Below are positions 23,396 through 53,894 of a stretch of DNA of 64,000 nucleotides, one piece after another; the first letter of the stretch is position 1, and each line of letters starts with the position of its first letter. The stretch is from contig NZ_JASVWB010000002.1 of NCBI RefSeq assembly GCF_030287445.1, forward strand, positions 6,696,001-6,760,000, in the 5' to 3' direction. Position numbers and translations under genes: made by a program. This stretch comes from Streptomyces sp. ALI-76-A. Lineage in GTDB: Bacteria > Actinomycetota > Actinomycetes > Streptomycetales > Streptomycetaceae. A model generated the notes under the pieces. That model had not been told where the DNA came from, did no database searches, and saw nothing but the letters and a program-made list of their open reading frames with translations.

Positions 23396-24594
23396 ACGGC
23401 GGCTCCCGGTCGGGTCACCACGAGGTACTCGCGGCGGTAGACGTGCAGGGCGCCGCCCACCAGTCCGGCGCCGGCCAGCCCCACGGGGAACACGAAGGGG
23501 GCGGTCCCGTCCAGGAGGGCGAGCCGCCCGTCGGCGAGAACGTCGTCGAACCGGTCGGCCAGCACCTCGATGCCCCGCGGGAGCGGGGCACGGAAGGGAT
23601 AGTCCTCGGCGACCGTCTCGACCCGGGGCGAGGTCTCCTCGGCGAGCGCCCGCGCCACGGGCAGGGTCTGCCGCTGCGCGTGCTGCGCGAGCAGCGCGTC
23701 GGCCGCAAGGAGCGGCACGGCGAGCAGCGGCAGGGCGCCGGCCGCCAGCGGGACGCTCAGCCGGATCCGGAAGCGGCGGCGCAGGAAGACCAGGGTGCGC
23801 CAGAGCCCGACGGTGAACAGCGCCAGGGCGAGCCCGGACACCGCGGCGGCGGTCAGCACGCCGTCGCCCCAGCCCGCCCGGTCCGCGAGCCGCTCGCGCA
23901 GCTGTCGTTCCAGACCCGCCACCCGGTCCACGATCGCGGTCGCGCTGGAGCCGGTCTGCGCCGGGCACGGCGGGTAGCGCTCCCGCCGGTGCTCGGCGCG
24001 GACCGGGCGGGAGCAGAGGATGGTGCGGGCGGACGCCAGACGGGCCTTGCGCAGGACCGCGTCGTCGGCCTGCTGGGCCTGGCCGATGTCTCCTGTGAAG
24101 TCCACGACCAGCGCGGACACCACGCGCAGCTCCTGCTCCTCGGCCACCGTCAGCGCTCCGCTGCGCGCGACCTGGTTCAGGCTCTGCGTCGCCCGCGCCA
24201 CCCGGGTCCGGTACCGCTCGCTGAGCTCGCCGATCCGCACCGCCTGCCCCGCGCGGAGGATCCGCACGGCCTCGCCCTGCGCGATGAACAGCGAGGCCCT
24301 GGCGTCCGCGAGACCGACCAGCGCGGGCGCCAGCCGGTCCCGCAGGTACGCCGAGTCGCCCCGTACGTCCGCGTAGGCCCAGCCGAACGCGCCGAACCCC
24401 ACCACGGCGAGCAGCGGCAGCGCGACGAGCCGGTCCCGCAGGAACTCACGGTTGCGCCGGCCCGCCGCCGTCGGCCACGTGTAGCGCCGGACGCGGCGGG
24501 CGAGTTCGGCGGCGACGGCGAACACGGCCCGGACACCGCGCGGAGCGGGTGAGCGCCGGCCGGCACCCGCCCGGGGCCACCTCCCCCGCCTCAC
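23392..24594 (-). CDS. GlnX-like membrane sensor protein
   Basis: 400 residues with four hydrophobic spans: LVALPLLAVVGFGAFGWAYA, VLTAAAVSGLALALFTVGLW, VPLAAGALPLLAVPLLAADA, and PFVFPVGLAGAGLVGGAL. Between the first and second spans lies a ~150-residue helical extracytoplasmic loop with five cysteine-free helices except for TILCSRPVR and YPPCPAQ. This is the topology of GlnX, which couples a lipoprotein to PknG. GTG at 24594 overlaps the kinase stop (GTGA) and its own stop overlaps the lipoprotein start, so all three are translationally coupled. Homology to GlnX is inferred from topology and context. Confidence 0.72.
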   Translation of the reverse strand: MRRGRWPRAGAGRRSPAPRGVRAVFAVAAELARRVRRYTWPTAAGRRNREFLRDRLVALPLLAVVGFGAFGWAYADVRGDSAYLRDRLAPALVGLADARASLFIAQGEAVRILRAGQAVRIGELSERYRTRVARATQSLNQVARSGALTVAEEQELRVVSALVVDFTGDIGQAQQADDAVLRKARLASARTILCSRPVRAEHRRERYPPCPAQTGSSATAIVDRVAGLERQLRERLADRAGWGDGVLTAAAVSGLALALFTVGLWRTLVFLRRRFRIRLSVPLAAGALPLLAVPLLAADALLAQHAQRQTLPVARALAEETSPRVETVAEDYPFRAPLPRGIEVLADRFDDVLADGRLALLDGTAPFVFPVGLAGAGLVGGALHVYRREYLVVTRPGAAV

Positions 24595-26897
24595 TCGTGG
24601 GCCGTCCGACGGCTCCTCGCGGTCTTCGCCGACGGGGTGTGGGCGACCGTCCGGAGCCAGTCGGTGAGCCTCTTTCCGAGCCATGGGCTGTCCCTGTGAT
24701 GTCGGAAGGCCGGCGGGCGGACCTCGTAGGCGCGGTCGAGCAGCGTCTCGGCGACGGCCGCGTCCTCGGGCACGGGGGACCGGGCGGCCTGGTGGGCGAG
24801 GGCGAGATACAGCCGGGACAGGTCCCGGCGCAGGCCGGGTTCGTCGGACGGCAGACCGAGCCGTACGTCGGCGGCGGCGGCCAGCGCGGCCAGGCCCGGC
24901 GGGTGGAGGGCGCCGCGCGCGAGGGCGTACCGCACGGTCTCCCACACCTCCGTCGTCATCCGGACCCTGGCCTGCTCGTCGGTCAGTCCGTGCGCGTGGA
25001 AGAGCCGGGCCAGCCGCTCCAGCACCTCGTGCAGCCGCTCGGCGACCTCGTCGGCGCGTTCGGCGGTGCGCACGTGCTCCACTCCCACGCGGACGGCGGC
25101 GGTACGGGCGGCGGTGCGGTGCCGTGAGTGCTGCGGCACCGCGTCGAGGGCCCGTACGGCCTCGTCCCGGGCCTGTTCGCCGCCCAGCGCGAGGCTGGCC
25201 CGCACCGCGCCGAACACCGCGCTGCCCAGCGACGGGTTGCGCAGCCGGACCGCCTCGTAGAACGTGAGCGCCTCGTGCCAGCGGCCCAGGCGCTCGGCGC
25301 AGTAGCCGAGTGCGAGCTTCGGCGCGTACTCACCCGGTATGGCCGCGTACACCCGGTCGAAGTGCCGCCGCGCCGCCGTCACGTGGTCCCGGGCGAGCGC
25401 GAGCAGCCCGCGGTGCCAGTCGAGCCGCCAGTCGTACGGGGCGCGCTCCGGTCCGATCAGCGCCTCGGCGGATCTCAGCTCCCGCAGGGCGTCCTCGGTC
25501 GCGCCGCGGGAGGCCCGCAACCGCACGCGGCAGCGCAGCAGATGGACCTCCGGCGACTCCCGCCAGTCCCCGGTGTGCTGGAGCAGCGCCTCCGGATCGG
25601 CGTCGGCGAGCCGGCTCAGCTCCGCGTGGTGGGCGTCGTCCGGGTCGGGCCGGGGCACGGGCAGCCGTCGCGCGACGTCGGTGGGCGACGGCGGCGCGAA
25701 CGCCGCGGGGGTGTCCGGCGTGGCCCAGCGGGCCGGGGGCGGCGCGGACCCCAGCTCGCCGTCCAGGGCGTACGGCGACTGGAGGAACAGCGGTGACGGC
25801 TCGAAGGTCTCCGTCCCGGTGCGCAGGGACCGCAACTCCCGGAAAACGCCTCGCAGTTGCTCCTCCATCTCGCGGGCGGTGGCGAACCGTTCGGCCGGCT
25901 CGGCGCGGGTCGCGCGGTGCAGGACGCGGGCGAGCGAGAGGAGACCGAGCCCGCGGGGAGCGGGTGTCGTCATCGCGTGGGCCTCGGGGAACGCGGGGTC
26001 GTCGGGGTCGGTGGGGGTGTCCAGCCCGCTGAGCATGCTCAGCGAGCCCAGTTCGGCCAGATCCTTCGGGGAGCGTCCCAGTCCGCTCAGCCGCCGCAGT
26101 GTCTCGCCGAGGCTGAACAGGTCGTCCTGGCCGGTGGATTCGCCGTTCGGGCCGACGGTCGGGGCGCGGAACCCCTCCGTGGTGGGGCCGGGGAGGCCGG
26201 CCGCGCGGACGCTTCCCACGTCGACGATCTTCGTCGTGGTGCCGTCGTGCATCACGTTGTCCGGTTTCAGGTCGCCGTAGACCTTCCCGAGCCGGCGGTC
26301 GTGCAGATGGCCGAGGGCGGCGAGGATGCGCACCCCGTAGGCGAGCACGAACTCGTGGAAGCGGCTGCCGCCGAACTCGGCCGGGTTCACCTGGGCCCGG
26401 GCCCGCACCTCCTCCAGCGTGAGCCCGTCCACGTACTGCAGGACGAGGAAGTCGCCGACCTCGGGGTGGTGCCCGTAGTTGAACACCCGGATGATGTCGT
26501 CGTGGTTGAGGTCGACCAGGGCCCGCCGCTCCCGGACCAGGGCGCCCGCCGCCTGGCCGGGGTGCAGGATCTTGATGGCGACCTCGCGGTGGTCGACCTC
26601 GGTGTCGAGCGCCAGGTAGACCTCGCCCATCCCGCCGTAGCCGAGCGAGCGCATCAGCCGGTACTGCCCGGCCAGCAGTTGTCCCGGCGGCAGCGGGAGC
26701 CCTTCGTCCGGCTCGGCGCCCCGGGACGCGGCTCGCTCCAGCAGGGTGATCGTGGGCAGCAGGCTCGGGTCGGGGCTCTCCTCGGGAAGCTCCACGTGCG
26801 CGGCCCGCAGATAGGGGGCCATCACGACGAGCTGCCCGAACGGCCCGCCGGAATCCGGCGGTTCACCGGACGCGTCCTTCCCCGAAGCCCCCTCCAT
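24591..26897 (-). CDS. PknG-type serine/threonine protein kinase with TPR-like C-terminus
   Basis: N-terminal ~75 residues carry no rubredoxin CxxC pairs, unlike mycobacterial PknG. The kinase domain follows: Gly loop GYGGMGEVYL (86-95), VAIK Lys109, YGDLKPDNVM for the catalytic loop (no HRD Arg, as in PknG), and VDVGSV replacing DFG, close to the PknG DLG type. A TPR-like region (residues ~420-750) ends the protein. It is predicted to phosphorylate a FHA protein such as GarA and respond to the coupled GlnX-like sensor. ATG at 26897 is chosen; no strong ribosome site is visible. It lies 128 bases after the 774-residue gene. Confidence 0.87.
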   Translation of the reverse strand: MEGASGKDASGEPPDSGGPFGQLVVMAPYLRAAHVELPEESPDPSLLPTITLLERAASRGAEPDEGLPLPPGQLLAGQYRLMRSLGYGGMGEVYLALDTEVDHREVAIKILHPGQAAGALVRERRALVDLNHDDIIRVFNYGHHPEVGDFLVLQYVDGLTLEEVRARAQVNPAEFGGSRFHEFVLAYGVRILAALGHLHDRRLGKVYGDLKPDNVMHDGTTTKIVDVGSVRAAGLPGPTTEGFRAPTVGPNGESTGQDDLFSLGETLRRLSGLGRSPKDLAELGSLSMLSGLDTPTDPDDPAFPEAHAMTTPAPRGLGLLSLARVLHRATRAEPAERFATAREMEEQLRGVFRELRSLRTGTETFEPSPLFLQSPYALDGELGSAPPPARWATPDTPAAFAPPSPTDVARRLPVPRPDPDDAHHAELSRLADADPEALLQHTGDWRESPEVHLLRCRVRLRASRGATEDALRELRSAEALIGPERAPYDWRLDWHRGLLALARDHVTAARRHFDRVYAAIPGEYAPKLALGYCAERLGRWHEALTFYEAVRLRNPSLGSAVFGAVRASLALGGEQARDEAVRALDAVPQHSRHRTAARTAAVRVGVEHVRTAERADEVAERLHEVLERLARLFHAHGLTDEQARVRMTTEVWETVRYALARGALHPPGLAALAAAADVRLGLPSDEPGLRRDLSRLYLALAHQAARSPVPEDAAVAETLLDRAYEVRPPAFRHHRDSPWLGKRLTDWLRTVAHTPSAKTARSRRTAHE

Positions 26898-27025
26898 GCG
26901 TCCACAGAATAGACGTGCGGGCCGGAAATGCCCCCCGTGCCGCATGAGGAGGTGGTGTGTCCAAGTCATCCCCGCCCGGCGTCACGTCACCGCCGACGCC
27001 GGGCCACCGGCCCGGACCGGCCGGC

Positions 27026-29350
27026 TCAGCGCTCCGCCGCGGCCGCCGCCGGGTCGGCGCGCATCCAGTGCGGGCCCGTGCTCCAGCCGAGGAAACAGCG
27101 GGCCCGGCCCCCGTCCGCCGTGCCGTCGCGAGCGAAGGCGCCGCCCGCGGCGACGAGCCGCAGCCCCGCGAGGGCGGGGGCCAGCCGGGCCGCCACGTGG
27201 GCGGGGTGGCGTGCGGTCTCCTCGTCGAGTGCGGCGAGAACGTACTCCTGTTCGGCGGGTGAGCACAGGGACAGGTGGAACAGCATCTGCCGCCAGGCGT
27301 ACGCCGCGTCCTTGAGGGCGGGCAGGGGCCGCGGGTTGCGGTGCACCCGGGCGGTGCGGCGGCACACCGTGACGAAGCAGCGGTGGGCCAGGTCGGAGGG
27401 GCCGGGTTCCGGGGAGACACCGACGCGGGCCACCAGCGTGGCCAGGTTGTGCGTGGTGAGGATCTGGGCCTGCTCGATCACCTTGCCGTTCGCCGCCACC
27501 GACCACGAGCCGGCCGGCTCCCCGGCCCGCTCGGCGCACAGCGCGGCGAACCCCGGCGAGGTCCGGGCACCGTACCTGCGGCTCGGAGCCGTGGCCGCCT
27601 CGGTGATCGCCAGGTCCCGGACCGCCCGGTAGTCGATGCCGTAGTAGCGCTCGTACAGCGTGCCGTGCAGGAGGTCGGCCGCGATCCGTGCCGCGGCGGG
27701 GAACTTCGGGCTGAACGTGCCCATGAAGATGTCCGCGGCGAGTTCCTCCACCAGCGGGGCGCCCAGGTCGGCCCGGCGGGCGAGCACGCCGAGTTCGCGG
27801 ACGAGCGGGTTGGGCAGAAGGGTGCCGGGAAAGGTCCGCACGGCCAGTTCGCCCAGCTCCCGCAGCACGGTGAGCGCGGGCCCCCGCCCCTCGGTCCCGT
27901 CGCCGAGCTGCCCCGCCACCGCGCGCACCCACGGCAGTTCCTCGGCCCGCACCTGCTGCCGCAGGTGGAGCAGGAGCAGCGAACGGCGGTTGCGGAACGC
28001 GCGGTAGTGCGCGGCCATCAGCGTCCGCAGCGCCTCGTCGCCGTAGCCCTGGGCGGTGGTGGCGGCGACCAGCTGCGGCACCAGCTCGGCCAGAACCTCG
28101 GCCGAGGGGATGACGCCCCGTTCCACCAGGGTGCCGATCGGCGCGCTCAGCGCGGCCTCGACCACCTGCCGGACCGTCGGCGGGACCACTGTCCCGGCGG
28201 GCAGACCGGCGTCCCGCGCCTCCTGTTCGGTCACCGGGGACACGAAGGGGGCCACCTCCGGGACGCCCGAGTCCTGGGGCAGTCCGCCGAGACGGCGCAG
28301 GACCAGCTGGGCCAGCGCGTGGTGGGAGGGGAGCGCCGCCTGGGCGGCCTGCCGCTCCCGCAGTGCCGTGTGCGGCGCGGAACCGGGCAGACCGCGCCGA
28401 CGCACCATGGACGCGACCGCGTGCCGCAGCAGACCCAGGCGACGGGCGTCCAGCGGGCGTCCGGCGACGGTCTCCTCCAGCGCGCCGCGCAGAATGCCCA
28501 GGTTCTGCCTGGGGTCGCGGTGCTTTCCGCAACGGGTGTGCCGCGCGGCCAGCTGCCGGTAGCGGTGCAGCAGGGCCGCGCCGCGCGCCGGCCAGGCGGT
28601 GTCCGGGGTCCGTTCGAGGACCCGGCCGTCGCGGGCCGTCTCCAGCCAGTGGGCGAGCAGTTCGTCGCCGAACGGCTGCCATACCGTGAGCGCCTCGCGC
28701 TGGGTCTCGACGGCGGCGTGGGGGCGTCGCCGGGCCAGGGTCGCCGAGGCATCGGAGACGGTGTCGCGGTGCACCGCCGCCGGGTCGGCCGCGGTGGGTT
28801 CGTCCGTCGGCCGGGGCAGGAACCGCAGCCGGCCGGCGTACGGCTCCAGTTCCGTCACGAGGTCCAGGGCGCCGGCCGTCTCGTCGTGGCGCACCAGCCA
28901 GGCCACGGTGAGCAGCGCGGCCTCCTCCGGCACCGTCACCTCGTAGCGGCCGCTGTCCAGCAGCTCACCCAGCCAGGCGAGCCCGGGTGCGGTGAGGCAG
29001 TGGGCGAACAGCGCTCCCCGGTCGGCGGCGACCCCGAAGCGCCGCGCGGCCTGCGCCTCGTACGGCTGGAGCGGGCCGCCCGCGCCGGCGGCCCCGGTGG
29101 CGAAGCCGCCCCGCACCACCTCGGGAGTCACCCAGACCGGGAGACCGGCCACCGGGGCGCGCGAACCGATCCGCAGCCGGCCGTCGGCCATCCCCGCGAG
29201 CACGGCACGCCAGCGCTTGACGCGCTGTGCCGCCCGGTCCCGGGTGCCGGCGTCCGGGTGGGTCAGCGCGGTCGTGAAGGCCTTGGCCGACTGGGCCGCC
29301 GCGTAGGACGGGGCGGCGGTGAGGGGCTGCTGCTCAGCGTCATCGTTCAT
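27026..29350 (-). CDS. Unknown 774-residue helical protein, first gene of the kinase operon
   Basis: I do not recognise the family. The sequence is predicted mostly helical with repeated leucine-rich segments (for example ALLTVAWLVRHDETAGALDL, ALAQLVLRRLGGLPQDSG, RSLLLLHLRQQVRAEELPWV) suggesting an alpha-solenoid. Distinct blocks are ADIFMGTFSPKFPAAARIA, LLHGTLYERYYGIDYRAVRD and the cysteine-containing DLAHRCFVTVCRRTARVHR. No membrane span or export signal, so it is cytosolic. The ATG at 29350 begins three bases after the 3' end of a tRNA-like element and has no ribosome site in the usual place, suggesting leaderless-like translation. It precedes the PknG-like kinase and probably works with it. 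Confidence 0.7.
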   Translation of the reverse strand: MNDDAEQQPLTAAPSYAAAQSAKAFTTALTHPDAGTRDRAAQRVKRWRAVLAGMADGRLRIGSRAPVAGLPVWVTPEVVRGGFATGAAGAGGPLQPYEAQAARRFGVAADRGALFAHCLTAPGLAWLGELLDSGRYEVTVPEEAALLTVAWLVRHDETAGALDLVTELEPYAGRLRFLPRPTDEPTAADPAAVHRDTVSDASATLARRRPHAAVETQREALTVWQPFGDELLAHWLETARDGRVLERTPDTAWPARGAALLHRYRQLAARHTRCGKHRDPRQNLGILRGALEETVAGRPLDARRLGLLRHAVASMVRRRGLPGSAPHTALRERQAAQAALPSHHALAQLVLRRLGGLPQDSGVPEVAPFVSPVTEQEARDAGLPAGTVVPPTVRQVVEAALSAPIGTLVERGVIPSAEVLAELVPQLVAATTAQGYGDEALRTLMAAHYRAFRNRRSLLLLHLRQQVRAEELPWVRAVAGQLGDGTEGRGPALTVLRELGELAVRTFPGTLLPNPLVRELGVLARRADLGAPLVEELAADIFMGTFSPKFPAAARIAADLLHGTLYERYYGIDYRAVRDLAITEAATAPSRRYGARTSPGFAALCAERAGEPAGSWSVAANGKVIEQAQILTTHNLATLVARVGVSPEPGPSDLAHRCFVTVCRRTARVHRNPRPLPALKDAAYAWRQMLFHLSLCSPAEQEYVLAALDEETARHPAHVAARLAPALAGLRLVAAGGAFARDGTADGGRARCFLGWSTGPHWMRADPAAAAAER

Positions 29351-29353
29351 AAG

Positions 29354-29425
29354 CCGGCGTGGCAGGTTCCGCCCCTGCGCCCTCCGGGTCCGGAGCCCGG
29401 TGCTCTGCTCCTGAGCTACACGCCG
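29354..29425 (-). tRNA. tRNA-Arg(CCG)-like element with aberrant D and T loops
   Basis: A 72-base cloverleaf on the minus strand with every stem perfectly paired: acceptor 7 bp (CGGCGTG/CACGCCG), D stem GCTC/GAGC, anticodon stem CCGGG/CCCGG with loop CTCCGGA (anticodon CCG, Arg), variable AGGGC, T stem GCAGG/CCTGC. But the T loop reads GGCGGAA instead of TTCRANY, and the D loop AGGAGCA lacks G18 (typical AGTGGTA). Residues needed for the D/T loop contact (G18, T54, T55, A58) are gone. CCA is not encoded. It could be a decayed tRNA, a divergent functional tRNA or a processed 5' leader element of the 774-residue gene. Confidence 0.65.
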
Positions 29426-29835
29426 ATGAACGCCGACGGTAGGTGCGGAGCGGGTGATCGTACAAGCGGGTTTTCCGCGGCTCGGCCGCGGATCACCGGC
29501 GTGCTGCTGGTCCGGATGGCGGTCGCCGAGGCCTCCGCCCAGCTGCTCGCCGCCGGGGAGCGGCCTCCGGTGTACGTCCCCGGCGGCTTCGAGGGAACCT
29601 GGAGCTGGAGGAGCGGTACGCGGGCCGGATCCGCCGCACCGCGGGCTGAGGTGTAGGGGTTCCGGGGGCGCGGCGAGGGTTCGGCCCGCGCGGGGACGGT
29701 AGCGGGGGCGGGGCCGGCCGAGCGTGTGGTGGGGCCGGGGTGGGGCCGGCGGTGGGTGGCCGGTCGTCCTGTCTTCCCCGAGGCGCTCAACGGGTAGTCT
29801 CCGTCACAGAGTTCACGGGGGCCCCGGGGAGTGGC
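29426..29835. other. Intergenic region between the tRNA-like element and the CHAT gene
   Basis: 410 bases. In its left part lies a gene relic (see separate entry); the right part (29650-29835) is G-rich (GGGGCCGGGGTGGGGCCGGC near 29730-29750) and should hold the divergent promoters of the 774-residue and CHAT genes. TAGTCT at 29795-29800 is a candidate -10, with no clear -35. Confidence 0.4.
29500..29649 (+). pseudogene. C-terminal gene relic beside the tRNA-like element
   Basis: The + frame reads LLVRMAVAEASAQLLAAGER then PPVYVPGGFEG with gene-like composition. A frame change at about 29593-29596 joins it to LELEERYAGRIRRTAG ending in TGA at 29647-29649, which looks like a natural C-terminus. 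There is no start codon or ribosome site, so this is read as the decayed 3' end of an unrecognised gene. It could also be chance. Confidence 0.35.
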
Positions 29836-32800
29836 ATGGAGGCTTTGCCTGCGTCGCCGATGACGCGAGCCGTGTCGGACACGGTCCCGCACCTGGTGCG
29901 ACGGCTGTTCGCCGCGAGCGCCGGCGCCGGACTCCCCATGGACCGGCCCGTCCCGCTGGCCGCGCAGTTCTCGCTCCCGGGACCGGACGCGGGCCGCCTG
30001 GAGAGTGAGATCCGACAGCTCCTCGCGGAGCAGGTGCGCAAGGCCGCGGAGGCGCGGCCGGACGCCCCCGCGATGGACGCCGACGCCTACGCGGCGGTCA
30101 CCGATGCCCTGGCCACCACCCTGCTGGAGCTGGGCAACGTCCGGCTCAGCGACGTCCAGGCCGTGGCACTGCGGCCGAGCGGACTGGCGGACCGGTTGCG
30201 GGCACTGGCGCCCGGCGCGACCGACGGGCTCGGTTCGGACGCCACCGCCCTCCACTCGACCCTGCTGCACCTCATCTGCCTGCATGTGCTGCACTTCCTG
30301 AGCGTGCGCTCGGCCTACGTGCCCCAGGCGCTGGCCCGCCAGAGCCGGGAACTGGCCGTGAGCGTCGAGGCCTTGCGCGGAGGCGGGTCTCCGCCGCCTG
30401 GCGGGAGCGGGCCCGCTCCCGCGCACGGCGGGCCCGCTCCCTCGGGTGGGCCGCCGCCGTTCCCGGGTGGGCCGCCGCCCGCCCCGGGTGGGCCGCCGTT
30501 CCCGCCCTTTCCCGGTGCGCCCACCGCTGCGGCCGATCCGGCGGGGCTCAGCGCGGACCGTCTGCTGCGGGTGCGGCGCGCACCGCGGGTACGGAACCGC
30601 GGGCGCGGGGCGTTCGGCCGGCTGCTGCCGGGCCGGCGGGCCGCCGAGGCGGAGGAACAGCGCAAGCGTGCCCTCATCCGGACGCCCGTCCTGTCCTGCT
30701 ACCGGATCGCGGTCGTCGGCCTCAAGGGAGGCGTCGGCAAGACCACGACCACGGCCGCGCTGGGCAGCGTCCTGTCGGCGGAGCGCAACGACCGGGTCCT
30801 GGCGCTCGACGCGACCCCGGACGGCGGGACGCTCGGCGGCCGGCTGGCCCGGGAGACGTCCGCCACCGTCCGCGACGTGGTGCGCGAACTGCCGCGGATC
30901 GACTCCTACCTGGACTTCCGACGCTTCACCTCACGCACGGCGTCAGGTCTGGAGGTCATCGCCAACGACATCGATCCGGGAGAGTCCGTCGTCTTCGGCG
31001 GCGCGGACTACCGGGCGGTGGTCGAGGCGTTCGGGACCCAGTACCCGATCATCCTCACCGACTGTGGCACGGGGCTGCTGCACAGCGCGATGCACGGGGC
31101 GCTGACCCTCGCCGACCAGGTCGTCTTCGTCACCGCCCCGTCGGTGGACGGGGCGGTCGGCACCGGCAACACGCTGGACTGGCTCGCCGGCCACGGCTAC
31201 GCCGACCTGGTGCGGCGGTCCCTCGTCGTGGTGTCCGGGGTCCGCAGGACGTCCCGGACCGTCAAGGTCGACCGGATGGTGGCGTACTTCCAGGCGCGCT
31301 GCCGGGGCGTGGTGACCGTCCCGTTCGACGAACACCTCGCCGCGGGCGCCGAGATCGACCTCGGCCGGGTGCGGTCCGGGGTGTACCGGGCCTACTTCGA
31401 CCTCGCGGCGCTTGTGGGAGAGGACCTGCGACGGCACTGGGCGTCGGGGAGCCGGGCAGGGCACGGGACCGGAGTCGGAGCCGGGATCGGCGTCGGGGGT
31501 GGGGCCGGTCGGGGCGAGTGGCAGGGGTGGACGCCGCAGGCGGGGTGGGGGGCGCAGCCCCCGCCGTTGCCGGAACCGTTGCCGGAACCGTTGCCGGACG
31601 CCGGCCTCGTGCCGGGGCCCCTGCCGGAGCCGGAGCCGGACGTGCCCCTCGAACCGGAGTGGGAGCCGGACGCCGGCCTTGGGCCCCTGCCCCTGCCGGA
31701 GCCCTTGCCGGAGCCGGAGCCGGAGTCGGAGCCGGAGCCGGAGCCGGAGTCGGACGCCGGCCTCGAACCGGAGTCCGAGCCGGCGCCGGATGTCGAGCCG
31801 GATGCCGAGCCGGATGGGCGTCACGCCCGTGAGCGACCCGCCGTCGACGCGCGCCTGACGAGGCCCTCCGACGGTCAGGGCAGGGCGCAGTCCGGGCGGC
31901 GACCACCTGCCGGGCCGGTGGTCCTCCCGGGCTCGGAGTCTCCACCGGACGCGGGCGGACAGGCGGGCTCGGGTCCGACATCTCCGCCGGGGTCGGCGAC
32001 GCCTCCGCCGGGCTCGGCGACGCCCCCACCGGGCTCGGCCCCCCAGCCGGACGAGGCCACCGGGCGGCCGGGCTCCACTCGGCAGCCGGGCCCGACCCCG
32101 CAGTCCGGCCCCACTCCCGGTTCCGGCTCGTCCGGACCGGCGGGTTCCGTCCTCGTGCCGGACTCGGCCGTTCCGCCGTACGAACCGGCACCGGCCGACG
32201 CGTGGGCCGAACCGTCGCCGCCGGCGCGGCCGCGCGTGCCGGACCAGGAACCCGGCGTGGAGGAAAGCCGCCGTCTGGTGACGGAACTGGCGGAGCAGAC
32301 CGCTCAGGGCCGCACCCTGCCGCTGCATGTGCAGGTGGTCTGCGGTGCCGGGCCGGGCGCGCCGCTGCGGGCCTTCAGGATCCCCGAGGAGGGCGCGGTG
32401 CTGGGGATCACCGTGCATGCCGTGGGGCTGCGTGCGCTGAGCGACCTCCACCAGGAACTGACGGTGTATCCGCGCCAGGACTCCGACGTCGCGCGCTTCC
32501 TCTTCAAGGCCGACGTCCCGGGACTGCACGAGGTGACCGTCCGGGCGTTCCGGGGCGGCACCTTCCTGGGGGAGCTGCGCTGCCAGGTCTCCGTCGAACC
32601 CGGCGGGGTCACCCGCGACGGCCCCCGGCGGTCGGTGCCGCTGCCCTCGGTGGCGTTCGACCCGGGCGAGGTCACCCTGCAGGTGCTGAAGGACGAGACG
32701 GCCGGGACGTTCAGCTTCCAACTGCTCGGGGAGACCTGCTACGCGCCGGAGACCCACCGTTTCCGGGCCGGCGACCCGGCTCACGCGGCCGGGCTCATCC

Positions 32801-33705
32801 AGGCGGAACTGAGGGCCGCGGCCGCCGGACGGCAGCCGGAGGACCCGTCGTACCTCCGCGACCGCCTGCGCAACCACGGCGTCCAGCTGTGGTCCTCCGT
32901 GGTCCCGAGGGCCGTGCAGGAACAGTTCTGGCAGCAGCGCGACCACGTCACGTCGTTCACGGTGCTCGGTGAACAGGACGTCGTGCCCTGGGAGTTGATG
33001 TACCCGCTGAGCAGGGACCAGGACGACGGCGGCTTCCTCGCCGAGTGGCTTCCCGTGGTGCGCCGGGTGTTCGGGCAGGACCGGGTGCGCAGCTTCCGGC
33101 TTCCGGGCGCCGCCTTCGTCGTGCCTCCGGGATCGCCCGCCGACACCGAGGAGGAGATCCGTGCGGTGCGGGCGCGGATCGGTCCGTCGGTCGGCGACCT
33201 GGGAGTGCTCACCGAACGGTCCGCGCTCACCCGCCTGATCGAAGCGGGCGGGGTCGGCCTGCTGCACTTCGCCTGCCACAACGCCTTCGGCCCCGGCGGA
33301 TCACGCGTCACCATGGCCGACGGCCCCTTCGACCCCATCGACCTGTCCTTCGCCGCCGAACTGCGCAGTCTGCGGGACCACCACCCGCTGGTGTTCTTCA
33401 ACGCCTGCCGCAGCGCCGGGGAGATCGACTGGTTCGGCGCGAACCTGGGCTGGGCGCAGCAGTTCCTGAGAGCGGGCGCGGGAGCGTTCATCGGCACGCT
33501 GTGGCCGGTCAGGTCGCGGTCGGCACTCCAGTTCTCCGAGGCGTTCTACCACCAGCTGATCGCCGAGCGGCAGCCGCTCGGCCGGGCCACGCTGGCGGCC
33601 CGCCGGGCGATCCGCGACCAGCACGGCGACCCCACCTGGCTCGCCTACGCGGTGTACGGCAGCCCCGCGGCCACCGTCAGCCATGTCCCCGTCCCGAGCG
33701 TGTAG
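29836..33705 (+). CDS. NNH7-like / MinD-like ATPase / CHAT protease fusion protein
   Basis: About 1289 residues with five parts. (1) Residues ~17-180: helical domain close to NNH7 ([48 protein letters not shown]), normally found before NACHT NTPases. (2) Pro/Gly-rich spacer. (3) ~285-535: SIMIBI MinD/ParA-like ATPase, Walker [11 protein letters not shown], then [15 protein letters not shown] and IILTDCGTG. (4) ~535-800: disordered linker rich in PEPEP, then Pro/Gly/Ser. (5) ~805-940 beta-rich domain, then a CHAT caspase-like protease with LLHFACHN (His1148) and [10 protein letters not shown] (Cys1191). The start ATG at 29836 follows GGGGAG; ATG at 29860 is an alternative. Cytosolic. Predicted sensor-protease of a conflict system; targets unknown. 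Confidence 0.85.
31555..31820 (+). repeat. Short-period CCGGAG/CCGTTG repeats in the acidic linker
   Basis: Imperfect 6-, 9- and 12-base repeats encoding [14 protein letters not shown] and EPDAGL units in the linker between the ATPase and the CHAT half. All expansions seen keep the frame. Such low-complexity DNA should vary in length among strains. Confidence 0.85.
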
Positions 33706-33719
33706 AGGAGCGTCACCGC

Positions 33720-34880
33720 ATGACCGATCCGGTCTTCGTCATCCACGGCGTGGGCAACCGCGACCGCGACGGCTTCGAGGCCGCCGTGACCGCACTGCGG
33801 AAGGCTTCCGGCGTGGACCTCGTACCGGTCTACTGGGGTGATCTGGGCGCGGACGACACGCACTTCGCGGTCACCCTGCCCGCCCTGCCCGGCGCCCTGC
33901 GCGACGACGCCGGCGGCGAGACGGACCCCGACGCCGTTCCGGAGGCGGCGGACGCCGTGGACGCGGCCGAAAGGGTGGACGTACGGCGGCAGTGGCCGCA
34001 CCTGGCGGCCGGTGCCCGCGAACGCGCCGACGACCTGGACGCCCCCGAGGACGGACTGCGGGCCGGACCCGGTGCCGAGCACGACCCCGGCCGACTCCTC
34101 GACGTGGTGGCGGAGATGTGGTCCGACACCCGTTGGCTGAGCAGGACGGACGACCCGGGACTGCTGCGCGAGGTCGGCGCGGCGCTCGCCGATGTCCTGA
34201 CCGAACTCGACGCCCAGGAAGCCGCTTTCGAGGTGCGGTCGTACGCCGACGAGACCGCCCGGCTGCGGGCGCTGGTACGGCGCCGGCTGAACGATCTCGA
34301 CCGGGTCGCCGGCGCGGCGGTGCAGGCCGCGGCCCGCCGGATGAACCACGCCCTGCGCTCCCGTATAGGCCCCGGCACCACGCGGTTCGTCGGTGACGTG
34401 CTCGTCTACCAGCGGCACCAGGCGGCCGTGCACGCCCGGGTGCGGGCCACGATCGACGCCGTGGACCCGGCGATCGGGCGGGGACCGGACCGGCCGGCGC
34501 GCATCGCCGCGCACAGTCTGGGCGGGGTCGTCGCCGTCGACATGGCGACCGCCGAAGAGCCTCTGTGGACCGGTCAGTTGCTCACCTTCGGTTCGCAGTC
34601 CGCCCTGTTCCACGTCTGCGACCCCCGGGGCGGGCGGCTCGCCCCGTACGACGGCACGGAGCCCGTACGACTGCCGCCGACGCTGCACCGCTGGACCAAC
34701 CTCTGGGAGCCGCTCGACGTCCTGGCGTTCGCCGCGACCCGCCTGTACCGGCTGCACGACGACACCGCGCCGGTGGACGTGCCCGTGCCCCATCTGGCCC
34801 GTACCGGGCTGTGGACGCACTCCGCCTACTGGGAGCACCCCGAGGTGGCGGCCGTGCTCGCCGCGACCATGGCGCCCTGA
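33720..34880 (+). CDS. Alpha/beta hydrolase, probable partner of the CHAT protein
   Basis: 386 residues starting at ATG 33720, which follows GAGGAG by nine bases and lies 14 bases after the CHAT stop, so the two are one operon. The strand-turn FVIHGVGNRDRDG opens an alpha/beta hydrolase fold, and the nucleophile motif AHSLGGVVAVDMA (GxSxG-type Ser) lies in the second half; TFGSQSALF and WTNLWEPLDVLAF follow, as in putative serine esterases. No signal peptide or transmembrane span, so it acts inside the cell. The substrate is unknown; lipase, esterase and peptidase remain possible. Confidence 0.8.
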   Translation: MTDPVFVIHGVGNRDRDGFEAAVTALRKASGVDLVPVYWGDLGADDTHFAVTLPALPGALRDDAGGETDPDAVPEAADAVDAAERVDVRRQWPHLAAGARERADDLDAPEDGLRAGPGAEHDPGRLLDVVAEMWSDTRWLSRTDDPGLLREVGAALADVLTELDAQEAAFEVRSYADETARLRALVRRRLNDLDRVAGAAVQAAARRMNHALRSRIGPGTTRFVGDVLVYQRHQAAVHARVRATIDAVDPAIGRGPDRPARIAAHSLGGVVAVDMATAEEPLWTGQLLTFGSQSALFHVCDPRGGRLAPYDGTEPVRLPPTLHRWTNLWEPLDVLAFAATRLYRLHDDTAPVDVPVPHLARTGLWTHSAYWEHPEVAAVLAATMAP

Positions 34881-34998
34881 CTCCGAGAGGCCGGGACTCC
34901 CGCGACCATGGCTCCCTGACTCCGAGAGGCCGGGACTCCCGCGACCATGGCGCCCTGACTCCGAGAGGCCGGGACTCCCGCGACCATGGCTCCCTGAC
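34863..34998 (+). repeat. 39-bp tandem repeat copying the hydrolase stop region
   Basis: An 18-base block GCGACCATGGCKCCCTGA (the last five codons plus stop of the hydrolase gene at 34863-34880) recurs at 34902, 34941 and 34980, separated by an identical 21-base spacer. The ambiguous base alternates G, T, G, T, suggesting that a 78-bp unit was duplicated after a 39-bp one. Only the first copy is part of the gene. Confidence 0.95.
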
Positions 34999-35150
34999 TC
35001 CCACGTGATCCGCCGCGTCGGCGGAGCCGACGCCGAGGCCCCGCACCGTGGCCGTCCGGTGGCACCGCGTCCACGCCGGTCAAGGCCCCGGCGGACCGCA
35101 CCGGCAGGGCACCCGATGAACCCGGTACCGCCGCTGACCAGGACGGACAC
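34998..35150 (-). pseudogene. Relic of an NAD-dependent epimerase (SDR) N-terminus
   Basis: A GTG at 35150 begins MSVLVSGGTGFIG, the classic atypical short-chain dehydrogenase start with a GxxGxxG nucleotide motif. The next residues are scrambled, and a shifted frame reads ALTGVDAVPP, like the ALxGVDxV block that normally comes about 50 residues later. About 150 bases are recognisable, so this is the remains of a deleted and frame-shifted gene. Confidence 0.55.
35015..35033. terminator. Hairpin downstream of the hydrolase gene
   Basis: CGTCGGC at 35016-35022 pairs with GCCGACG at 35026-35032 across a three-base loop, with one flanking G-C pair. It may end the CHAT/hydrolase transcript. No T-run. 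Confidence 0.35.
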
Positions 35151-35205
35151 GGGCCCACGCCGGCGGGGCGGTCATCAGGACGACCGACGGGCCGCGCCCG
35201 GCACG

Positions 35206-36663
35206 TCACGGTTCCATGAGACTCGGGGGTGTCAGCGCGAGCGTCACCGTGAAGACCGTGGCCCCGGGCTCGTCGCTCAGCTCGATCGTCCCGCCGTGCG
35301 CCCGGACCAGGGAGCGGGCGACGGCGAGGCCGAGGCCGCTGCCGCCGCGGTCGCGGCTGCGCGCCTTGTCGACGCGGTAGAAGCGGTCGAAGACCCGTGC
35401 CCGGTCGGCGGGCGGGATGCCGGGGCCGGCGTCCGCGACCCGCACCAGCGCCCGGCCCGGCTCGGCCAGGACGCCGACGGTCACCTCCGTGCCCGCCGGG
35501 GTGTGCACGGCTGCGTTGGTGAGCAGGTTGTCCAGGACCTGGCGGATGCGCTGCGCGTCCAGGCGCAGCCTGAGCGTCCGGGGGCCGGGCGTCACCGTCA
35601 GCGGATGGTCCGGGTGGCTCGCGCGGAACGCGTCCGCCGCGTGCTCGACCAGCTGCACCAGGTCCGCCTCCGCCGGCCGCAGCGGGGTCTCCACCTCGGC
35701 CGCGTCCAGCCGGGCGAGCAGCAGCAGGTCGTCCAGCAGGACGCCCATCCGGGCCGCCTCGGCGCGCAGCCGCGCCAGGTGCTTGTCGCGTTCCTCGGGG
35801 GCGTTGGCGGCGGCGTACTGGAAGAGGTCCGCGTATCCCCGTACGGACATCAGGGGTGTGCGCAGTTCGTGCGAGGCGTCCGCGACGAAGCGGCGCAGCC
35901 GCTGTTCGGCCTCCGCGCGGACCGCGAGGGAGTCGTCGATGTGCTCCAGCATCGTGTTGAACGCGGTGCGCAGCTCGTCCACCTCCGCGCCGCCGTCCCG
36001 GCCGTCCGCGCGCAGCGACAGCCGGGCCGCGGACTCGGTCAGGTCGTGCGAGGTGATGCCGTGGGCGGTGGACGCCATGTCGCTGAGCGGCTTCAGGCCC
36101 CGCCGGAGCATCCTGCGGCCGAAGATCACCAGCGCCAGCAGCGCGAGCACGAACGTGACGACCTGGATGGTGATCAGCTGCTGGACGGTGTCGTCGATGT
36201 CGTCCATCGGCGCGGCGCTCACCAGGACCACCCCCGGTTCGACCTCGCAGGCGCGCAGCCGGTAGACGCCGGCGCCCCGGAGGTGCTCGGTGCGCACCAG
36301 CTCCGAGCCCGACGCGGCCTGGGCGCCGGCCAGGGAGGTGAACTCGTCGATGTCCGTCGGTACGTCGCCGGCGTTCTCGGGTGTACGGAGCACGGGTGCG
36401 CCGTCCGACACGTCGTACACCGCGTAGTACCAGCGGTAGTACCGCTTGCCCTGGAGCGTGCCGGTGTCCGCGATGCTCTTGGACTGGGCCATCTGGGCGA
36501 GCTTCAGCTGGTCGTTGAGCTGTGCCGACAGGTAGTCCCGCATGTACGTCGTCAGGGCCGTGCCGACCACGGCGAACACGACCAGGGAAAGGACGCCCAG
36601 GCCCAGGGCCAGCCGGGTGCCCAGCCGCATCCTGCGGTAGGTCCGGCGCAGGCGGCCGATCAC
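35206..36663 (-). CDS. Sensor histidine kinase of a two-component system
   Basis: 485 residues. Two membrane spans (LALGLGVLSLVVFAVVGTAL and VVTFVLALLALVIFG) enclose a ~130-residue sensor domain; a HAMP linker follows, then the dimerisation box DASHELRTPLMSVRGYADL (His near residue 265) and the ATPase domain with NLLTNAAVHTP, DAGPGIP and GGSGLGLAVA. GTG at 36663 overlaps the stop of the response regulator gene (GTGA). It lies divergent from a flavin-based electron-transfer operon, which it probably controls. Confidence 0.92.
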   Translation of the reverse strand: MIGRLRRTYRRMRLGTRLALGLGVLSLVVFAVVGTALTTYMRDYLSAQLNDQLKLAQMAQSKSIADTGTLQGKRYYRWYYAVYDVSDGAPVLRTPENAGDVPTDIDEFTSLAGAQAASGSELVRTEHLRGAGVYRLRACEVEPGVVLVSAAPMDDIDDTVQQLITIQVVTFVLALLALVIFGRRMLRRGLKPLSDMASTAHGITSHDLTESAARLSLRADGRDGGAEVDELRTAFNTMLEHIDDSLAVRAEAEQRLRRFVADASHELRTPLMSVRGYADLFQYAAANAPEERDKHLARLRAEAARMGVLLDDLLLLARLDAAEVETPLRPAEADLVQLVEHAADAFRASHPDHPLTVTPGPRTLRLRLDAQRIRQVLDNLLTNAAVHTPAGTEVTVGVLAEPGRALVRVADAGPGIPPADRARVFDRFYRVDKARSRDRGGSGLGLAVARSLVRAHGGTIELSDEPGATVFTVTLALTPPSLMEP

Positions 36664-43277: not shown

Positions 43278-43337
43278 CGGAACGGGGCGGGCCCGGGGCG
43301 GACTTCTCCGTCGCCCCGGGCCCGCCCCGTTCCGTCA
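43275..43337. terminator. Bidirectional terminator containing both convergent stop codons
   Basis: Perfect 26-bp inverted repeat: 43275-43300 pairs with 43312-43337, loop of 11 bases. The left arm begins with the TGA of the permease gene and the right arm ends with the TGA (minus strand) of cvnD, so each gene's stop is the outermost base-triplet of the hairpin. It should end transcription in both directions. Confidence 0.9.
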
Positions 43338-43973
43338 GGCCTCGGTGCGGGCCAGCGCCTGTTCCAGTACGACGAGCAGGGCGTCGCGCACCGAGCCGCG
43401 CTCCCGGGCGTCGAACACCACCAGCGGCACGTGGTCGCTGACGTCGAGCGCCCAGCGGACCTCCTCCAGGGTGTGCTCGACGTGCCCGTCGAAGGCGTTG
43501 ACGGCCACCGCGAACGGGATCTGCTTGTGCTCGAAGTAGTCGACGGCCGCGTAGCAGTCGTCGAGGCGGCGCGTGTCCACGATGACGAGCCCGCCGAGCG
43601 CGCCCTCGACGAGGTCGTCCCACATGAACCCGAACCGCTCCTGGCCGGGCGTGCCGAACAGGTACAGCTTCAGTGTCGGGTCGATGGTGATGCAGCCGAA
43701 GTCCATCGCGACCGTCGTCGTGGTCTTGCGCGGGGTGTGGCTGAGGTCGTCCACACCCGCCGCGACCTCGGTGATCGCGGCCTCGGTGGTCAGCGGCTCG
43801 ATCTCGGAGATCGAGCCGACCGCGGTGGTCTTGCCCACCCCGAAGCCGCCCGCGATCACCATCTTGACCGGCAGGGGTGGTTTCACGGCGGCCTGCCCGG
43901 CCGCGCCGGGGGTCCCCCCAGGTCGAGCGGATCCGAGACCCTGGGGGAGGGAGGCCGGTTCAGTCGGTGTCAC
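43335..43973 (-). CDS. cvnD: Conservon GTPase CvnD (first conservon)
   Basis: Ras-like GTPase of the MglA/CvnD family (212 residues). P-loop GGFGVGKTT, switch region TTTTVAMDFG, G3-type LFGTPGQERFGFMW, base-recognition region AVNAFD replacing NKxD. GTG at 43973 overlaps the end of cvnC by 14 bases. In Streptomyces conservons CvnD works with CvnA-C in a membrane-bound signalling complex, loosely like a eukaryotic G-protein. Confidence 0.92.
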   Translation of the reverse strand: MTPTEPASLPQGLGSARPGGTPGAAGQAAVKPPLPVKMVIAGGFGVGKTTAVGSISEIEPLTTEAAITEVAAGVDDLSHTPRKTTTTVAMDFGCITIDPTLKLYLFGTPGQERFGFMWDDLVEGALGGLVIVDTRRLDDCYAAVDYFEHKQIPFAVAVNAFDGHVEHTLEEVRWALDVSDHVPLVVFDARERGSVRDALLVVLEQALARTEA

Positions 43974-44406
43974 GGAGTACCCCTCGGGAGTCGGGGATGG
44001 CCCTGAGGCCATCGATAACCCTTCGCAGGACGGACGAGTCGTGCGTGGCGCCGGAGTCGGGCACGTGCACCGTCAACTGCCCCGCCGCGCGCAGATCCTC
44101 GGCGAGGACGCGGACCACGTTCAGGTGCAGCCGCAGCCGGGCCGCGATCTCCGCGATGGACTGCGGCTGCCGGCACGCGGCGACGATGTCGTGCTGTTCG
44201 AAGGAGAGTTCGTCGAGCACGCCGAGCCCCTCGGCGGTGGCCACCACCTGGGTCTCGACGGGCATGGTCCGGCCGTTCGCGCTGGGCGCCACCCGGCCGG
44301 CGGTGACCAGGAACGGCCGCACGGCGGGGACGGGGCCGGCCGGGTCCGGGTCCGGGGGCGCGGTGCCGTCCTCGCCGGCACCTGCGTGAGTGCGGCCGTC
44401 CGCCAT
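43960..44406 (-). CDS. cvnC: Conservon DUF742 protein CvnC (first conservon)
   Basis: 148 residues. A disordered N-terminus precedes the DUF742 core with RPFLVTAGRVAP, a winged-helix-like segment (FEQHDIVAACRQPQSIAEIA and LNVVRVLAEDLRAAGQL) and a C-terminal SVLRRVIDGLRAIP. Part of the cvnABCD unit; a GTG/ATG start at 44406, 37 bases after cvnB. Role: regulatory partner of CvnD. Confidence 0.9.
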   Translation of the reverse strand: MADGRTHAGAGEDGTAPPDPDPAGPVPAVRPFLVTAGRVAPSANGRTMPVETQVVATAEGLGVLDELSFEQHDIVAACRQPQSIAEIAARLRLHLNVVRVLAEDLRAAGQLTVHVPDSGATHDSSVLRRVIDGLRAIPDSRGVLRDTD

Positions 44407-44443
44407 GGCTTGTGTCTTCCTCCTCGGCCGGGCGGGCGCCCGG

Positions 44444-44920
44444 TCAGCGCTTCGACGCGGCGCCGACGCTGTTCTTCAGTTCGAGCACGAGCTGGGGGCT
44501 GAGCGCGGCACCGGCACGGTTGGCGAACAGCGTCATCTCGTACGCGATGTTGCCGAGCTTGGCCTCCTTGTCGGTGACCACGCCGAGAACGGCTCCGCTG
44601 CCGATCGCGGAGACCAGGACGTGGCCGCCCTCCAGGTCGATGATGACCTTGTTGAGGCCGCCCAGACCGTAGTTGCCGGAGGCCCCGGCGGCCAGGCTGG
44701 TGATGCCGGAGACGATCGCGGCGAGGCGCTCGGAGTCGGCGTGCTCACGCAGCTCGGACACGGCGATGAGCAGGCCGTCGGAGGATACGGCGATGGCGTC
44801 GACGACACCCGCCGTCTCGGTGGCGAAACGATTCAACAGCCAGGTGAAGTCGGCTGCCGCGGCCTGGAGTTCGGCCGGCGTGGTGCCTCCCGCCGGGGTG
44901 CCACCTGTCGACGTGCTCAC
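44444..44920 (-). CDS. cvnB: Conservon roadblock/LC7 protein CvnB (first conservon)
   Basis: 158 residues with the roadblock/LC7 fold (MglB family, GTPase-activating or scaffold role): LLNRFATETAGVVDAIAVS, SERLAAIVSGITSLAAG, GHVLVSAIGSGAVLGVVTD, IAYEMTLFANRAG. GTG at 44920 with GGAAGGAGCG upstream. The GTGA overlaps the stop of cvnA. Confidence 0.93.
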   Translation of the reverse strand: MSTSTGGTPAGGTTPAELQAAAADFTWLLNRFATETAGVVDAIAVSSDGLLIAVSELREHADSERLAAIVSGITSLAAGASGNYGLGGLNKVIIDLEGGHVLVSAIGSGAVLGVVTDKEAKLGNIAYEMTLFANRAGAALSPQLVLELKNSVGAASKR

Positions 44921-49653: not shown

Positions 49654-50265
49654 TCAGCGGACCGGGCGAGGAGGACCCTGGGAGCCGTCCCGCCGGTCGA
49701 CCTCGGCGATCACCCGGTCCAGGAGGGCGACCAGCACGTCCCGGCTGGAGGCCCGTTCCCGCGCGTCGCACAGCAGCACGGGCACGTGCTCCGGGAGCGC
49801 CAGCGCGTCCCGGATGTCGTCCGGCGCGTACGGGTGCCGTCCGTGGAAGCCGTTCACGCCGACGACGAACGGGATGCCCCGCCGCTCGAAGAAGTCGACG
49901 GCGGCGAAACTCGACTCGGGCCTGCGGACGTCGATCAGCACCACCGCGCCCAGCGCGCCGACGGCCAGGTCGTTCCACATGAACCAGAACCGCTGCTGCC
50001 CGGGCGTGCCGAAGAGATAGAGCACCAGTTCGTCGCTGATCGTGATCCGGCCGAAGTCCAGGGCCACGGTGGTGGCACGTTTCTGCTCGATGCCGTCGAG
50101 ATCGTCGATGCCCAGGCCCGCGGCGGTCAGCGACTCCTCGGTGCGCAGTGGGGCGATCTCACTGACCGACCCGACCATGGTGGTCTTCCCGACGCCGAAG
50201 CCCCCGGCGATCAGGATCTTGACGGTGTCGGGTGCCACCGGGGCGGCGGTGTCAGAGCCGGCCAA
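49654..50265 (-). CDS. cvnD: Conservon GTPase CvnD (second conservon)
   Basis: 203 residues of the MglA/CvnD GTPase family: P-loop GGFGVGKTTMVG, TTVALDFG, LFGTPGQQRFWFMWND, and ERRGIPFVVGVNGFHGR. Start overlaps the end of cvnC by 14 bases, as in the first conservon, showing that gene order and coupling are conserved. Confidence 0.92.
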   Translation of the reverse strand: MAGSDTAAPVAPDTVKILIAGGFGVGKTTMVGSVSEIAPLRTEESLTAAGLGIDDLDGIEQKRATTVALDFGRITISDELVLYLFGTPGQQRFWFMWNDLAVGALGAVVLIDVRRPESSFAAVDFFERRGIPFVVGVNGFHGRHPYAPDDIRDALALPEHVPVLLCDARERASSRDVLVALLDRVIAEVDRRDGSQGPPRPVR

Positions 50266-50611
50266 GACCGTCCCTCACTTTCTGCAGCAGGTCCATGTCC
50301 GGGGTGCGGAGCGAGACGGGATGCGGCGGGCGGGCGGTGATCAGACCGGCCTCCAGCAGATCGCAGAGCATGATGACGATGACGCTCACCGGCAGGTCCA
50401 GCAGCGCCGCGAGCTCCGCCACGGCCACCGGCCGCGCACACCGGCGCAGGATCCGGGTCTGTTCGGGCTGTGGCCGTGGAGCCCGTTCCGGGGGCGGATC
50501 CACCGTGGTCACCGTCGTGATGAGGGTGAAGTCGGCGCGGCTGGGCCGGGTCCGTCCGCCGGTCAGCGCGAAGGGCCGCACCAGCCGCCCCGCCGCGTCG
50601 CTTCCGCTCAC
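50252..50611 (-). CDS. cvnC: Conservon DUF742 protein CvnC (second conservon)
   Basis: 119 residues; RLVRPFALTGGRTRP and the winged-helix block (RILRRCARPVAVAELAALL, SVIVIMLCDLLEAGLITA) identify DUF742. Shorter at the N-terminus than the first conservon's CvnC. Start overlaps cvnB by a few bases' distance. Confidence 0.9.
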   Translation of the reverse strand: MSGSDAAGRLVRPFALTGGRTRPSRADFTLITTVTTVDPPPERAPRPQPEQTRILRRCARPVAVAELAALLDLPVSVIVIMLCDLLEAGLITARPPHPVSLRTPDMDLLQKVRDGLGRL

Positions 50612-50612
50612 C

Positions 50613-51047: not shown

Positions 51048-51058
51048 GGCGGTGTCCT

Positions 51059-53677: not shown

Positions 53678-53894
53678 GGTCGTCCTTGGGCGATCAGCGG
53701 GGAAGCGAGGGCGAGGAGCGGGGTGAGGAGCGGGGCGAGAAGTGGGATGAGAGGGGGCGGTGGGGAGCGGGCGGGGGAGCGGAGGCCGCGGTCCGGCGGC
53801 GGTCCGCCGGAAGACGCGTACGGCCACCGTGCCCCGCCGTGATCCGGTCGCCGTGCCCCGCCGGGATGCGCCCACGGTATTCCACGGGAGCGGG

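Follow-up and report, generated by a model that had tools for sequence, protein, structure and literature searches.

An NNH1-MinD-CHAT protein and its hydrolase-like partner in Streptomyces: a rare two-gene unit that may serve in biological conflict

Introduction

Bacterial NACHT proteins are described, in the part of the literature that treats their layout, as carrying effectors at the N-terminus, the NACHT domain in the center, and sensors at the C-terminus (PMC12169576). According to a section of Kaur et al. (2021, PMC8195603), KAP or AP-GTPase domains can take the place of STAND domains; the main text of that paper contains no word beginning with "MinD". In the vWA-MoxR conflict systems, MinD/ParA-like domains and caspases are among the parts; the relevant sections of Kaur et al. 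(2020, PMC7159879) give MinD/ParA-like domains as the commonest cell-division-type effectors of these systems, predicted to be inactive, and state that caspases of the VMAP component always have an alpha/beta-hydrolase neighbor. This study deals with a two-gene unit that combines parts of these kinds. It is located in a stretch of 64,000 nucleotides from Streptomyces sp. ALI-76-A (contig NZ_JASVWB010000002.1, positions 6,696,001 to 6,760,000), denoted below as the window.

Gene 1 (29836..33705, + strand) encodes a protein with an NNH1 head, a MinD-type ATPase, and a C-terminal CHAT protease; gene 2 (33720..34880, +) begins 14 bp behind it and codes for a product resembling alpha/beta hydrolases. 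With a probability of about 0.42, the unit is considered a rare, relocated conflict unit, serving defence or programmed arrest by an NNH1-ATPase-CHAT-hydrolase mechanism. That it belongs, more broadly, among systems for conflict or arrest appears probable.

Architecture of the gene 1 protein

The reading frame of gene 1 opens with an ATG at 29836 and codes for 1289 amino acids. The domain order of the product is NNH1, MinD/ParA ATPase of the SCO5717 type, a probably beta-rich segment, and CHAT protease; long proline-rich and Pro/Glu-rich repeats connect the domains. The four motifs pointed out by an earlier sequence-only reading of this DNA all lie in this frame, at residues 146, 297, 1142 (LLHFACHN), and 1187. 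It is a single open reading frame with Pfam-recognized domains, and since a 1082-residue protein with the same domain order occurs in another species (Streptomyces resistomycificus, locus L048), it is no accident of the assembly. The protein is read here as a new architecture built of known conflict-system parts. New to us is NNH1 followed by an intact SIMIBI ATPase; the single parts and the pairing of protease and hydrolase are already known. The NNH1-MinD-CHAT combination was not found in a literature search by title and abstract start, which covered lists of at most 12 to 20 papers and left most subscription journals outside. The earlier claim of an undescribed architecture calls for caution: within this search it can stand for the exact combination, but not for MinD/ParA-like domains, caspases, or the caspase-hydrolase pairing, which appear in the cited sections of PMC7159879.

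The NNH1 domain (residues 11-180, 29866..30375, +) is recognized by PF22733 with an expectation value (E) of 8.5e-29 and 101.3 bits against a curated cut-off of 27, and is the sole NNH1 match in the source genome at E ≤ 0.001. The label NNH7, given to this region before, is rejected, as NNH7 is absent from the Pfam matches at E up to 1; the suspicion of a wholly unrelated N-terminus does not apply either, NNH1 being a sister NACHT-head family. Among 296 genomes of the class, 25 including the source genome have NNH1 (43 matches). The genus and class searches with NNH1, MinD, CHAT, and hydrolase scored part of the first candidates of many genomes, so that weak homologues can be missed, and several comparisons leave out records very near the source genome. 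Thirty loci were read, the window's included, and the 13 matches without a locus were left out. A NACHT-type P-loop comes after NNH1 in 23 of the 29 loci other than the window's (six are partial or unclear), which indicates that the head belongs to switch-driven proteins. A KGGxGK motif after NNH1 is present in the window protein alone among the 30, and no NACHT family is among the Pfam matches of gene 1, which has a MinD-type P-loop instead. As a description of layout, the proposal that a SIMIBI ATPase has replaced the STAND switch is therefore fair; the functional side of it is discussed below.

The ATPase domain (residues 277-535, 30664..31440, +) harbors Walker A (297-306) as well as D325 and D409, whose roles we presume from the fold. 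Matches to CbiA and AAA_31 start at residue 291 (E 6.5e-09 and 2.1e-08). The earlier description as a MinD-like ATPase with a Walker motif is borne out insofar as Walker A is intact; the domain is no generic MinD, being kin to the SCO5717 family. It is 63% identical to the source genome's SCO5717-family protein, its only other match there at E ≤ 1e-5. That protein is encoded near eccE and eccB and roughly 15 kb from eccC, and its N-terminal motif NF041021 scores 89 bits; an NCBIfam scan did not find this motif in the gene 1 protein. The name SCO5717 occurs in no paper of the literature searched. A MinD match at E ≤ 1e-30 is found in 190 of 199 Streptomyces genomes, mostly one per genome. Among the plasmid matches listed (20 of 164 records), the MinD part resembles Streptomyces MinD/ParA proteins (57-64% identity) and Rhodococcus plasmid proteins of this type (42-46%). 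With SCO5717-like and plasmid MinD/ParA proteins as the nearest relatives in these records and in the genus, an assignment to generic MinD or chromosome partition was rejected.

Second or third MinD copies are found in 22 Streptomyces genomes. The MinD part lies towards the C-terminus in all 24 of the frames concerned, and none of the 22 regions has a match to NNH1 or the CHAT part at E ≤ 1e-6. Eight of these proteins were scanned: four have a SAV_2336 N-terminal domain, and one each an NB-ARC/FxSxx-TPR STAND module (TPR, tetratricopeptide repeat), FhaA_N, an SCO5717 N-terminus, or none of these. Walker A, intact in the gene 1 protein, is degenerate in eight long multidomain second copies (the three of them scanned all have the SAV_2336 N-terminal domain) and altered in three shorter frames. 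Two individual fusions may be mentioned. In genome G088 (L116 4425-8435, -), the NB-ARC/FxSxx-TPR STAND module precedes a C-terminal SCO5717-type MinD domain with apparently intact Walker A (KGGTGKT); in genome G140 (L106 2591-5773, +), a SAV_2336 N-terminal domain, a GntR helix-turn-helix, and an intact MinD domain form one protein.

In a midpoint-rooted tree of 46 rows with several long branches, the MinD domains of the window and S. resistomycificus form their own clade (100/100) outside the SCO5717-like copies, and that of L106 nests among them. Sequences from genomes assigned to the window's genus group there with named Streptomyces plasmid sequences. The rows include the source genome's own copy and every third (16) of 48 best-match copies; ten rows from eight loci repeating the same places were dropped. 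Copies were assigned to SCO5717 by their MinD part, the N-terminal motif being checked in the source genome's copy and in L105. From these placements, multidomain proteins have probably acquired this type of domain on more than one occasion. The window domain retains 144 of the 211 columns that are near-invariant among 49 SCO5717-like copies; L106 retains 192.

The regions around the ATPase are less constrained. Identity to L048 is 53% (57 aligned codons) in the poorly conserved proline-rich linker in front of it (residues 181-276, 30376..30663, +) and 43% (84 aligned codons of 536-800) in the equally poorly conserved Pro/Glu/Asp-rich linker with tandem repeats behind it (residues 536-809, 31441..32262, +). 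The segment before CHAT (residues about 810-1095, 32263..33120, +) is 88% identical in L048. It appears beta-rich by eye and in a low-confidence AlphaFold model (mean predicted local distance difference test, pLDDT, 35.3; two-row alignment), and similar stretches are present in two Hymenobacter CHAT proteins, its first part also in a TerB protein. The CHAT domain itself (residues 1102-1271, 33139..33648, +) is recognized by PF12770 (E 4.4e-21; 76 bits, cut-off 24). H1144, H1148, and C1191 are invariant in six aligned proteins; the presumed catalytic histidine and cysteine noted earlier are a conserved pair.

The hydrolase-like partner

Gene 2, which the sequence-only reading had not covered, encodes 386 amino acids. 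No Pfam model reaches its cut-off (best Hydrolase_4, E 0.06), and profile matches in the Protein Data Bank are weak, mostly to lipases, esterases, and thioesterases (best E 0.0099). In six aligned homologues, H9-G10 (an oxyanion HG in the first strand), H265-S266-x-G268-G269 (an HSxGG elbow), D333, and H367 are invariant. This alignment omits two fragments and two of the five distant homologues. S266 is the presumed nucleophile. The protein is called alpha/beta-hydrolase-like because of the invariant residues, a Ser-Asp-His set among them, and the weak Protein Data Bank matches; its AlphaFold model has a mean pLDDT of 36.2 (two-row alignment).

Distribution, selection, and relocation

One orthologue of gene 1 emerged when 84,980 species genomes were searched by short peptides, an approach that reaches close relatives only. 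It is the S. resistomycificus protein (L048 8162-11410, 1082 residues), which has the same domain order and a CHAT part with 88% identity. The hydrolase gene is present there as well, its start overlapping the stop of gene 1. By Nei-Gojobori comparison of the two sequences, the ratio of nonsynonymous to synonymous substitution rates (dN/dS) is 0.12 for CHAT, 0.155 for the preceding segment (815-1095), 0.24 for MinD, 0.29 for the hydrolase, 0.44 for NNH1, the fastest-changing folded part, and 0.82 and 0.46 for the first and second linker, respectively. The folded parts of the unit are under purifying selection. With two orthologues, deeper conservation is judged solely from the CHAT and hydrolase homologues.

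When the whole window was compared with the 21-kb L048 locus by blastn, the common parts were the two-gene unit and 171 aligned columns (82% identity) at the end of a SIS-domain gene. L048 has this gene in full, ahead of the unit (SIS_2, E 1.1e-39), and the window keeps a leftover 3' end only (29493..29650, +). As the flanks differ, the unit sits at two different genomic sites. Neither a secretion nor a partition locus surrounds the one orthologue, a setting that had been named as a possible objection to a conflict role.

Outside this pair of species, the CHAT part is matched in four of 149 other Streptomyces genomes (32-39% identity) and, partially, twice in 295 other genomes of the class. 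Relatives of the hydrolase occur in seven of 198 other Streptomyces genomes: five are distant (27-34% identity) and two are fragments, located at L136 8155-8526 (110 residues, 68%) and L142 6859-7119 (45 residues, 67%), with no gene 1 match within 14-16 kb. These decayed remains have the look of an accessory element. A phage origin was considered and rejected: none of 50,697 phage records matches the CHAT part, and neither the whole protein nor the hydrolase has a confirmed relative in viral contigs.

The CHAT-hydrolase pair in other settings

Genes for a CHAT-like peptidase and the hydrolase are adjacent in the window, in L048, and on a plasmid of Hymenobacter sp. 5317J-9 (NZ_CP095052.1, L135 2838-9278). 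The plasmid encodes TerB, CHAT, hydrolase, and CHAT proteins in one direction; compared with the unit, identity is 33% over 406 amino acids for the hydrolase, 39% over 197 for the second CHAT protein, and 25% over 268 for the segment. A recombinase gene directly follows this run, and beyond two genes on the other strand lie type III methyltransferase and restriction genes. A stretch resembling the first part of the pre-CHAT segment is present in the TerB protein.

Within Streptomyces, a distant hydrolase homologue in L139 (genome G096) belongs to a conflict locus of the vWA-MoxR type: directly behind it come genes for a caspase-VMAP-M0-VMAP-C protein, an AAA (MoxR-like) ATPase, and a SAV_2336-TPR protein. 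MoxR, vWA, and VMAP-C themselves have no match in genes 1 and 2 or in four other window proteins scanned.

Surroundings in the window

A tRNA-Arg gene (29353-29425) has the unit on its 5' side, and no repeat of at least 18 bases involving the tRNA is present in 29300-35300; a tRNA-integrated island is thus not supported. Likeness to the S. resistomycificus unit stops at 34897, within a 39-base tandem repeat (34861-35001; 3.6 copies, 97% matches). The opposite strand encodes a 774-amino-acid protein (27026-29350, -) that is matched by neither Pfam, NCBIfam, nor PADLOC at E up to 1, adjoining a PknG-like kinase with TPRs (24591-26969). Two conservon-like runs, each with a sensor kinase, a roadblock-type protein, a small protein, and a GTPase by eye, extend over 43335-47736 and 49654-54283 (-). 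Neighboring genes were picked by frame composition, with profiles for a few.

Possible mechanism and alternative explanations

Each functional step of the mechanism is inferred from sequence. The NNH1 head would sense or dock a trigger, upon which the SCO5717-type ATPase would change state or dimerise on ATP. This change could bring C-terminal CHAT proteases together and so activate them. The active protease would cleave the hydrolase or work with it, as partner or substrate, and the hydrolase may then attack a lipid or ester, with growth stopping as a result. Of these steps, an action of CHAT on or with the hydrolase is rather likely, and a working switch function of the ATPase, suggested by its intact ATP site, is slightly favored.

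Several observations weigh against this reading. The unit is very rare, with one orthologue in the close-relative search, and no full-length match to the CHAT part was found in the 149 other Streptomyces or 295 other class genomes. The pairing of hydrolase and caspase-like peptidase is not general: a caspase gene adjoins one of the five distant hydrolase homologues (L139), another (L141) has as its neighbor an EAD2 protein that does not match caspases, and three gave no clear neighbor. Likewise, no hydrolase homologue was found within about 5 kb on either side of the source genome's two other CHAT genes, or within 1.5 kb on either side of four distant Streptomyces CHAT loci. The window locus is no obvious defence island; in PADLOC, gene 1 has weak matches (best E 9.5e-05), gene 2 is unmatched, and a neighbor matches kinases in a generic way. 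Both structure models (mean pLDDT 36.2 for gene 2, 35.3 for the segment) are too poor for use. The ATPase keeps only 144 of the 211 near-invariant columns, and the C-terminal position of MinD in other fusions fits an effector or targeting role equally well.

The main rival builds on this last point. Integrated decoys occur in plant immune receptors. Through its likeness to the SCO5717 ATPase, the MinD part could serve as targeting device, bait, or effector: it would direct the protease to the growing tip or to the machinery of type VII secretion, or lure attackers of that machinery, with regulation left to NNH1 and partners. Its 63% identity to a housekeeping protein encoded near eccE and eccB suits this explanation, as do the repeated capture of the domain type by multidomain proteins, with L106 inside the SCO5717-like copies and the window pair outside, its C-terminal place in other fusions, once with an NB-ARC STAND module (L116), and the listing of MinD/ParA-like domains as effectors in the sections cited of Kaur et al. 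(2020, PMC7159879). A decoy should, however, track its model closely, and the moderate retention of SCO5717 columns, lower than in L106, speaks against a close decoy; the ATP site is intact, unlike that of the effectors predicted inactive in those sections of PMC7159879. This explanation is rather unlikely. Sequence alone cannot separate a switch from a targeting or bait role of the MinD part.

Kinship of the ATPase and the NCBIfam name "SCO5717 family growth-regulating ATPase" would also agree with a proteolytic regulator of growth or type VII secretion that has a housekeeping or developmental function and no defence role. Such a regulator is improbable: the window copy lies outside a secretion locus and its surroundings differ from those in L048, as judged by frames and a few profiles; the unit is sporadic, compared with an SCO5717-type match in 190 of 199 genomes; and the decayed hydrolase fragments in two other genomes look accessory. 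Little likelihood is given to the notion that CHAT and hydrolase form an older portable effector module, also present in Bacteroidota, for which NNH1-MinD would be a sensor that others could replace, its mechanism being nothing special. The Hymenobacter pair has a similar segment and no NNH1 or MinD match, and NNH1 changes fastest among the folded parts, both as expected from such a module; purifying selection on MinD (dN/dS 0.24) and its retained Walker A argue against it.

The relocated conflict unit remains the preferred reading. Its boldest form, in which a working ParA/MinD dimerisation switch of the SCO5717 kind has taken over from the NACHT switch and directly drives a caspase-like protease and a partner lipase, is rather doubtful; it would amount to a second, SIMIBI-based route to a death switch resembling nucleotide-binding leucine-rich repeat (NLR) proteins, possibly guarding the secretion or growth machine with which the ATPase has kinship. 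If the ATPase is a switch, an NLR-like bacterial protease could work without a STAND NTPase drive, and a fold for plasmid and septum positioning would also trigger a caspase-like cut. If the MinD part is bait, bacteria would have an integrated decoy of their own, here for a protein linked to type VII secretion. Present in two phyla, the pair of CHAT and hydrolase is itself a candidate for a portable effector module.

Comparison with known systems

With the NNH1-NACHT proteins, which are bacterial NLR-like proteins, the gene 1 protein shares the N-terminal NNH1; it differs in having no NACHT, a SIMIBI ATPase next to the head, and a C-terminal protease, which thus occupies the position where the cited description of NACHT proteins places sensors (PMC12169576). 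With the SCO5717 family (NF041021, linked to type VII secretion), it has in common a MinD domain 63% identical to that of the source genome's member, whereas the SCO5717 N-terminal match is missing, the gene lies outside a secretion locus, and the domain is fused to NNH1 and CHAT. TPR-CHAT (Csx29) of Craspase, as far as the portion of PMC9729208 concerned describes it, is likewise a CHAT protease under the control of another module; gene 1 is without the CRISPR part and the TPR and has another control domain. The operon of Hymenobacter sp. 5317J-9 has hydrolase, CHAT, and segment in common with the unit, but lacks NNH1 and MinD, has a separate TerB gene, and is carried by a Bacteroidota plasmid. 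The vWA-MoxR/VMAP systems, in the sections of PMC7159879 cited, resemble the unit in a caspase-like peptidase beside an alpha/beta hydrolase and in MinD/ParA-like domains, and distant homologues of the hydrolase are found in such loci; their MinD/ParA-like ATPase domains are predicted to be inactive, whereas the ATPase motif of the unit is intact.

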